Shown: positions 20,484 through 23,048 of the stretch, piece by piece | Layout of the letters: every line of letters starts with the position of its first letter | How positions within the stretch are numbered: the stretch's first letter is position 1 | Assembly (NCBI GenBank): GCA_027484165.1 | Contig: JAIXWH010000066.1 | Span: forward strand, 23,939 to 87,938 | Length of the DNA: 64,000 nucleotides | Direction: 5' to 3' | Source of the DNA: Chitinophagaceae bacterium | GTDB taxonomy: Bacteria > Bacteroidota > Bacteroidia > Chitinophagales > Chitinophagaceae | Position numbers and translations under genes: made by a program | Notes under the pieces: generated by a model | What the model saw: only the letters and a program-made list of their open reading frames with translations | What the model was told of the DNA's origin: nothing | The model's database searches: none

Positions 20484-20563
20484 TTTTTTATCAACTCCTT
20501 TAGAATAAGTATAGTTACTTACTTTAAATGAGGATAAATTCCCAAAATTCTAATTCTGATTGC

Positions 20564-20600
20564 AATAACTTATGTCCGGGAATTTAAACAAGTTATTTTT
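20564..20600 (+). terminator. possible terminator after the ABC gene
   Basis: AATAACTT-N18-AAGTTATT followed by TTT; AT-rich stem. Confidence 0.4.
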
Positions 20601-20906
20601 ATATCACCGTTTTAAACCAATATCTATGATAAAGATTGCTGAGTTACATAATACTTATCAGTCTTGATCTTAAAACCGAATTTCTTTAGTTCTTTTTTAT
20701 TATTAAAAATGATTTGAATTATAAAAATAATGATTCCTATCAGTGTCTTTAAGTAATAATACTTATGTAAATCAGTCTTTATTACTAAAAGATACAGTTC
20801 TTCAATAGTTTAAATAATAAACGATAAAAATTTACGTCTTCATAATGTACAAGACAATAATTCAATATCCTAAAACCCGTTTTTAATCCAAACCTAGAAA
20901 ATCAAT

Positions 20907-20927
20907 TATCCAATCCAATCCAATGAA
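20907..20927 (+). repeat. TATCCAATCCAATCCAATGAA (copy 1)
   Basis: Related copies at 20935-20960 and 21198-21213. Confidence 0.7.
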
Positions 20928-20934
20928 GCCAAAT

Positions 20935-20960
20935 TATCCAAACCAATCCAATTCAATGAA
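20935..20960 (+). repeat. TATCCAAACCAATCCAATTCAATGAA (copy 2)
   Basis: Direct repeat of copy 1. Confidence 0.65.
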
Positions 20961-21010
20961 AACCAAGATTTAAAAAACTGATCTAATTAATTTTTTAAAT
21001 GAAAAACCTT

Positions 21011-21042
21011 TAAAGCTCTGATTATTCAGAGCTTTATTTTTT
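21011..21042 (+). terminator. intrinsic terminator of module A
   Basis: TAAAGCTCTGA-ttat-TCAGAGCTTTA followed by TTTTTT. Confidence 0.88.
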
Positions 21043-21197
21043 ATATAATTGACTTTAAGTAGATATACCTAAAACGTTTAATTCTTAATACTAAATATTT
21101 GATTTCGAGTTATAATAATACAATTATAATTACAATCAGTCGTTTTAATAACAAGAATCACAAAATGGTTCGTTGTTAATCCGAAACCCAATTAAAG

Positions 21198-21213
21198 TAT
21201 CCAATCCAATGAA
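21198..21213 (+). repeat. TATCCAATCCAATGAA (copy 3)
   Basis: Direct repeat shared with module A. Confidence 0.7.
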
Positions 21214-21275
21214 AAATTAATGGCTTCCAAATCCTTTTGAAATCAATAAATATATAATTTTAAAATGAAGCCATA

Positions 21276-21309
21276 GAGAGAGCCCTTAACTAGGCTCTCT
21301 CATTTTTTA
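21276..21309 (+). terminator. intrinsic terminator of module B
   Basis: GAGAGAGCC-cttaacta-GGCTCTCTC followed by ATTTTTT. Confidence 0.9.
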
Positions 21310-21356
21310 TAAACACTTCGTATTCAATAATAATTTAGACATTATAAATATTTCAA

Positions 21357-21530
21357 ATGCAATCTGTATTATGCGTTGGGTCAGTTTTAGTAGATGAACT
21401 TTATTTTTGTAATGAGAAGCCTAAAAATAATCTCAGAAAAATTAATGGGGAGAGTTTGGAAGCTAATATTACATTGATTAATAATTATGTCAAACTTGCT
21501 GCAAAATTTGCAGTTTCATATCAACAATGA
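21357..21530 (+). pseudogene. possible remnant of a PfkB-family carbohydrate kinase N-terminus
   Basis: MQSVLCVGSVLVDELYFCNEKPKNN... then TGA after about 57 codons; no downstream kinase domain. Confidence 0.3.
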
Positions 21531-22715: not shown

Positions 22716-23048
22716 CTATCTGTCTCTATTATTGAAGCCTCCACGGTTGTTGTTATTATTATTGTTTCTGTTGAAACCCCCGCCATTTGAAGGACGAGGA
22801 GCTGAAGGTCTTTCTTCTGCTGCTTTTACAACCAATGGTTTTTTCCCAAGAGAAATATCATTTAAACTGTCAATAGCTTCTAAAGCATCTTCTTTGTTTT
22901 CCATTTCAACAAATCCAAATCCTTTGCTTTTCCCAGTTTCTTTATCTAAGGCAACTTTAGCAGATACAACGGGACCAAATTTTTCAAATATTTCTTCTAA
23001 TTCAGCATCATCTAAATCATAAGGTAAGCCTGCAACAAAAATCTTCAT
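22716..23048 (-). CDS. RRM-domain RNA-binding protein with Asn/Gly/Arg-rich tail
   Basis: RNP2 IFVAGLPYDL and RNP1 KGFGFVEM; NNNNNNNRGGFNNRDR tail. Confidence 0.92.
   Translation of the reverse strand: MKIFVAGLPYDLDDAELEEIFEKFGPVVSAKVALDKETGKSKGFGFVEMENKEDALEAIDSLNDISLGKKPLVVKAAEERPSAPRPSNGGGFNRNNNNNNNRGGFNNRDR

Follow-up and report, generated by a model that had tools for sequence, protein, structure and literature searches.

The GacS/GacA–RsmX/Y/Z system, and likewise BarA/UvrY–CsrB/C, uses a LuxR-type response regulator and a palindromic activating sequence placed well ahead of the start site; its small RNAs, present in several copies, carry repeated short unpaired motifs through which a protein is titrated (PMC2375449). 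NosP, a FIST protein of Pseudomonas aeruginosa, and the kinase NahK feed into rsmY (PMC11784011). FIST proteins whose genes share an operon with those for a histidine kinase and a response regulator bind haem and are responsive to nitric oxide (PMC12570481). A multicopy sRNA family of Bacteroides is bound in its single-stranded parts by the RRM protein RbpB (PMC11697453), and LhrC of Listeria (under LisRK) and the csRNAs of Streptococcus (under CiaRH) are multicopy sRNAs, each controlled by one two-component system and bearing C-rich single-stranded motifs (PMC4132741, PMC3091779).

For Bacteroidota other than Bacteroides, control at the post-transcriptional level has hardly been charted. To our knowledge, Bacteroidota generally lack Hfq and CsrA. 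Here we analyse a window, a stretch of 64,000 nucleotides from a Chitinophagaceae genome, in which an initial annotation had proposed two tandem sibling sRNAs with a common C-rich target seed. These modules, A and B, belong with near certainty to a real multicopy sRNA family. Judging from promoter sequence and gene linkage, control of the sRNAs by a FIST–kinase–regulator system is likely, and the family together with this control is, as a single claim, reasonably probable. No prior description of the family, its promoter or its regulator link was found in the open-access literature searched, which is no proof of novelty.

Tandem modules and a multicopy RNA family

All window features below lie on the forward strand. 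Module A is a predicted sRNA of about 194 nt (20849..21042), in which an unstructured AUCC-repeat tail (20903..20967) leads into a perfect 10-bp inverted repeat, ATTTAAAAAA (20968-20977) pairing with TTTTTTAAAT (20991-21000), and then into an intrinsic terminator with an 11-bp stem and a T run (21011..21042). Module B, predicted at about 155 nt (21155..21309), has the AUCC-repeat tail TATCCAATCCAATGAA (21198..21213), a helix of ATGGCTTC (21220-21227) and GAAGCCAT (21267-21274) that encloses a large loop containing AAAUCCU (21220..21274), and a terminator with a 9-bp stem and a T run (21276..21309). A terminator scan (11 and 9 pairs) and a reading of the sequence place the terminators and inverted repeats of both modules, as well as the shared TATCCAATCCAATGAA tails, exactly where the initial annotation had them; the scan gave three terminator-like sites, compared with 0.1 +/- 0.3 in shuffles. 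The 13-mer CCAATCCAATGAA has exact matches solely at 20915 and 21201 in the whole window, and TATCCAATCCAATGAA with at most one mismatch is confined to the A/B locus in the whole 2.5-Mb genome. In agreement with the earlier claim that the interval has no supported reading frame, no ORF of at least 40 aa was found in 20881-21310. The predicted transcripts fold more stably than their dinucleotide shuffles (z = -4.49 for B and -3.26 for A).

The count of two modules was right as far as A and B go, and too low: a diverged module 0, probably a third sRNA, lies upstream at about 20604..20698, where the transcript limits are estimates and the terminator is weak in the window genome. At this position relatives carry CCGTTTTAACCAATATCC-like sequence, most with a strong terminator, and one pair of relatives has an ATGGTTT/AAACCAT stem. 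A further copy in the window's own genome (G000:C6:15681-15756, locus L201) has its own operator and its own terminator.

The DNA search of relatives matched one genome of the same genus, in the syntenic region (L002/L022), where A-like and B-like modules lie downstream of the same ABC ATPase gene; the A-like module is the syntenic homologue of A, and the B-like module reads AATGGCTTCCAAATCC...GGAGCCAT and ends in a terminator of different sequence. ABC orthologues are present in 36 of 93 genus genomes, a good part of the loci with one to three modules downstream. A first MAFFT alignment that included the terminators misaligned them, and the covariance model was built without them (R1, from 11 modules, each cut before its terminator). 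Because the terminators were left out of the model, they are an independent test of the family. R1 matched 25 of the 93 genomes, with up to six copies each and many of them away from the ABC gene, and an intrinsic terminator follows within about 45 nt after 63 of 67 hits, compared with 81 of 1340 random stretches (6%) of the same loci. The motif-plus-terminator layout, on whose conservation in relatives the initial annotation had staked its proposal, is kept, and the idea of tandem sibling sRNAs is now backed by synteny, covariation, paralogues elsewhere, terminators after 94% of independent hits and a shared promoter.

The UGGCUUC/GAAGCCA helix covaries, with ATGGCTTC/GAAGCCAT changing to ATGGTTTC/GGAACCAT and other forms. 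In an alignment that leans towards structure because it was fitted to the model, 93.1% of cells are paired, double changes occur at six of eight pairs, and double-change cells number 22 versus 5.2 in shuffles (0/500 shuffles as high); sliding the partner by 1-3 columns lowers pairing to 26-46%. The double changes can be seen even when the 11 seed sequences are aligned without the model. Considering that B carries this conserved helix and A does not (R2 79.4 bits, E 1.8e-14, versus 24.0 bits, E 0.006), A is an aberrant family member, which keeps the tail and the terminator, lacks the helix and has an AT-rich hairpin instead (20968..21000). Both inverted repeats of the layout first described are real, and the AT-rich repeat of A is different from the family's helix, which B alone possesses.

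The predicted RNAs of the family are roughly 150-350 nt long. When the search was carried beyond the genus, R2 matched 4 of the 399 genomes searched in the order and 1 of the 395 in the class. All of these are in the genus apart from one (G434), which belongs to a different genus of the family and whose match, too, has a terminator after it; this distribution is a lower bound, since weak members are lost under the stricter filters applied to many genomes. Rfam release 15 gave no match in the window at the gathering score, and in E-value mode the region and six family loci gave sub-threshold matches only, the best being SpF36 at 44.1 versus a cut-off of 48. This match, to a Streptococcus RNA, lies on the terminator side of a family member (L090, 2930-2980, minus strand) and probably reflects terminator resemblance.

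Two readings would remove the trans-acting RNA altogether. First, the region 20881-21310 is AT-rich and of low complexity, as would suit chance repeats next to two ordinary gene terminators with no RNA gene; this reading is refuted by the conservation, the covariation, the terminators and the promoter architecture, and its probability is negligible. Second, the modules might be leaders, attenuators or mini-ORFs (ATGAAAAGATCAATGG...) that serve a downstream gene, considering that several members have short ATG-initiated frames and that some genes start within a few hundred bases downstream. A strong terminator nevertheless closes nearly every copy, and the downstream genes vary from copy to copy and are often on the opposite strand, which makes this reading very improbable. 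As for the mini-ORF or leader-peptide form, it was rejected, as the frames shift, lose their ATG or gain stops between members.

A 57-aa ORF in the window (21357-21530, forward strand) is a remnant of a PfkB-type (pseudouridine) kinase gene; two relatives, G012 (L402) and G101 (L404), have an intact kinase–PsuG-like pair between the sRNA cluster and a YkuD gene, which is lost in the window genome. At the metF-linked sRNA site of five genomes (L099, L106, L114, L117, L119), a conserved gene for a protein of ~100-115 aa (MALQEITIVTNTAF... type) adjoins the sRNA. Close to the copy on contig C6 of the window genome (L201/L270) are a further histidine-kinase/LuxR-type regulator pair and a gene for a KaiC-like ATPase.

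The composite promoter and its candidate regulator

A de novo motif search of 59 upstream regions found a 16-bp palindrome, TAMGTRNNNNYACKTA; 92% of copies have it with a score above 10, compared with 1.6% of control stretches. Anchored on this operator, the upstream regions align without gaps and share a second promoter element, approximately ACCnnATTTT, at +34 to +43 from the operator, and a TAnnTTTnAnATCA box at +88. Of 43 distinct promoters, 24 have TAnnTTT at offset 88, compared with a mean count of 0.07 at other offsets. An RNA-hairpin reading of the palindrome (TAAGTANNNNTACTTA) was rejected; since half-site combinations that would disrupt RNA pairing are common, the palindrome is a DNA site.

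Three such operators stand in the window. Operator 0 (TAAGTATAGTTACTTA, 20506..20521) matches the family operator exactly and is followed at exactly +88 by TATTTTT, within the -7-type promoter box of module 0 (TATTTTTATATCA, 20594..20606). Operator A (TAAGTAATAATACTTA, 20750..20765; motif score 18.7) is an exact palindrome match, and operator B (TAAGTAGATATACCTA, 21056..21071; motif score 15.9) has one mismatch to the consensus. In the operator-anchored alignment, module A has the promoter box ACGTCTTCATAATG (20833..20848), which reads ACGTCTAATAGA or CGTATAATAGATG in relatives. Both A and B carry a variant box near +88 instead of TAnnTTT; thus, their start sites are estimates. The initial annotation had missed these control elements, the first two of which (20506 and 20750) lie outside its interval and the third (21056) between A and B.

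When the composite pattern is defined as the operator, 72 nt and TANNTTT, exact matches occur in 32 of 93 genus genomes, and the reversed pattern used as a control gave 2 matches in total. The 2.5-Mb window genome has only three: module 0, the sRNA on contig C6 and a three-gene operon on contig 44. By Pfam domains, this operon encodes a FIST protein (PF08495, 158.6 bits; PF10442, 128.8 bits), a PAS-rich histidine kinase (HisKA_3 and HATPase_c) and a response regulator (Response_reg and a GerE/LuxR DNA-binding domain). The composite promoter precedes the same operon in G000 (the window genome), G012, G092, G099 and G103; in G003, it precedes a kinase–regulator pair with an sRNA in between. In six genomes (G005, G011, G087, G090, G101 and G102), an sRNA copy directly adjoins the regulator gene of the operon. 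The palindrome is absent from two operon-linked copies (L096 and L101), which suggests a changed promoter type. Sigma-54-like sequences, TGGCAC(G/A)nnnnTTG or GGCACGnnnnTTG, are seen upstream of the start at five loci beside the FIST operon (L100, L102, L111, L096 and L101).

The RNA and the operon also occur together. Among the 93 genus genomes, the FIST protein being searched in all and the regulator itself in 16 only, the RNA is present in every one of the 26 that are positive for the operon or the regulator and in three that are not, and 64 have neither, a statistic that is inflated by shared ancestry. In four of the 26 (G044, G089, G095 and G104), the RNA was missed by the model and found via the promoter alone. 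One of them has two tandem, further diverged members whose operators are 343 nt apart (L416, G089:C89). In the RNA-bearing genome of another genus (G434), the regulator is encoded with 55% identity. FIST proteins that are more distant (44-49% identity) occur in RNA-negative genomes such as G041 and G051 without this regulator; thus, it is the regulator, not FIST, that tracks the RNA. No regulator was detected at 1e-40 in three RNA-bearing genomes (G017, G098 and G100), which are fragmented assemblies, 90-95% complete.

Another DNA-binding protein with the same clade distribution might be the true regulator, with the FIST operon as just one more of its targets. We infer operator binding by the FIST-linked regulator, three RNA-bearing genomes are without a detected one, and other two-component genes lie near some copies, such as the pair by L201; all this leaves room for such a protein. 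Against it, the operon shows the pattern of autoregulation, sRNA copies are physically linked to it in the six genomes above, and the operon-positive genomes are wholly included among the RNA-positive ones. Inverted repeats with a 4-bp spacer are usual for LuxR-type regulators such as ComA, and the operator has this form; it differs from the GacA box, TGTAAG-N6-CTTACA. A separate regulator is therefore unlikely.

We propose that the tandem copies 0, A and B are part of a multicopy family of trans-acting small RNAs, each copy of which most likely owes its transcription to activation by the LuxR/GerE-type response regulator of the FIST/PAS histidine-kinase system. This regulator would bind TAMGTRNNNNYACKTA, some 95 nt ahead of the start site, and would also autoregulate its own operon. 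The signal may be nitric oxide or haem, by analogy with NosP. This resembles a hard-wired signalling circuit that puts out RNA instead of protein. The composite promoter is also found before a small secreted or lipoprotein gene (MKTSISILSVSFLVAVMMSSCAIN...) at L243 (G102:C4:117166-117260), with relatives of this gene near the sRNA cluster in G050, G083, G096 and G045; the gene is a possible protein-coding target of the same regulator.

AUCC tails and the putative mode of action

From the start site to the helix, the family tails contain 44% A, 24% C and 9% G. AUCCAAU occurs in them 91 times, compared with 3.6 expected, and UCC is present 2 to 16 times per RNA. The unpaired GGA motifs of the RsmY/RsmZ/CsrB class were looked for in these tails and are not the recurrent motif, which is AUCCAAU in sequence of 9% G.

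We consider two ways in which such tails could act. First, the same two-component-controlled RNAs may base-pair through their AUCC tails with GGAU-containing 5' regions of mRNAs, each RNA offering several identical seeds, as LhrC or the csRNAs do. Multicopy RNAs with C-rich single-stranded repeats before a terminator have an LhrC-type look (PMC4132741), the FopS sRNAs of Bacteroides pair near start codons (PMC11697453), and ATTGGAT and GGATTGG are marginally commoner upstream of genes than permuted words. The target test, which covered 1.08 Mb (43% of the genome) with crude start calls, weighs somewhat against pairing. Start regions of the window genome are A-rich, with about 7-10% G just upstream; thus, there is no evident Shine-Dalgarno region to block. 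In this 43% of the genome, ATTGGAT-type words near start codons show at most a marginal enrichment, and for 829 genes the duplex energies between tail and start region differ little from those obtained with shuffled tails. A motif number ranging from 2 to 16 is also odd for a unique seed. Lacking a Shine-Dalgarno region, a clear excess of complements and duplex energies distinct from shuffled tails, an LhrC-like seed is disfavoured, and the common target seed of the initial annotation, which had itself suggested looking for tail complementarity near start codons, found no support in this test. Base pairing in some form is still a tenable, though doubtful, mode of action.

Second, the AUCC repeats may titrate a single-strand RNA-binding protein, as RsmY and RsmZ titrate RsmA. 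The 5' tail, unstructured, G-poor and with repeated AUCC motifs, would be exposed, and the RNA would end at an intrinsic terminator preceded by the conserved hairpin. In Bacteroidota, an RRM-type protein would be the natural candidate for the titrated partner. An RRM_1 protein is encoded at 22719-23048, 1.4 kb from the locus; its gene order is kept in 5/5 relatives examined, which is weak evidence of a partnership because this order belongs to a larger conserved block. The likeness to RsmX/Y/Z comes from the variable motif number, the apparent LuxR-type activation via an upstream palindrome and the several copies per genome. By this analogy, titration by the AUCC repeats is slightly favoured over base pairing, as a tentative choice that falls somewhat short of an even chance.

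Comparison with known systems

The system nearest in architecture is Gac/Rsm, with which this locus shares a LuxR-type response regulator as candidate activator, a palindrome well upstream of the start and several sRNA copies with repeated short unpaired motifs; titration of a protein, a feature of the Rsm RNAs, is putative here (PMC2375449). Unlike Rsm/Csr, which use GGA motifs, these RNAs use AUCC with almost no G, the palindrome is another one and the phylum is different. The operon resembles NosP–NosK–NosR, in which histidine kinase, response regulator and FIST protein are likewise encoded together (PMC12570481); here the FIST N and C domains (PF08495 and PF10442) stand beside the kinase and the regulator. 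The outputs described for NosR are c-di-GMP domains, whereas the regulator here is a GerE DNA-binding protein with apparent sRNA targets.

Among Bacteroidota, FopS/GibS are also multicopy paralogous sRNAs with a single-stranded 5' part followed by a terminator (PMC11697453). Their partner is an RRM-1 protein, and here an RRM_1 gene lies nearby. FopS RNAs are about 65-70 nt long with one seed and canonical promoters; the present RNAs measure roughly 150-350 nt and have several repeats and a conserved helix, as well as an operator. A and B, at a predicted 194 and 155 nt versus 65-70 nt and with no match in Rfam 15, are set apart from FopS/GibS by size and by Rfam. LhrC and the csRNAs are comparable as multicopy sRNAs with C-rich single-stranded motifs under one two-component system (PMC4132741, PMC3091779). 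Their sequences are unrelated, and nothing corresponds to their anti-Shine-Dalgarno logic in a genome that lacks a G-rich Shine-Dalgarno region.

Each link of this scheme is open to test, since the sRNA family is structurally defined, its promoter is unusually rigid, a candidate regulator has been named and there is a candidate for the partner protein. The complete chain would be a separately evolved Gac/Rsm-like circuit in Bacteroidota, in which a FIST sensor kinase, possibly for nitric oxide or haem, acts on a LuxR-type regulator, whose main output besides itself would be sponge RNAs that titrate a global RRM-type protein via AUCC repeats; that all of its links hold is a speculative and rather unlikely proposition. 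If titration proves true, Gac/Rsm-type logic would have arisen at least twice, with unrelated parts.
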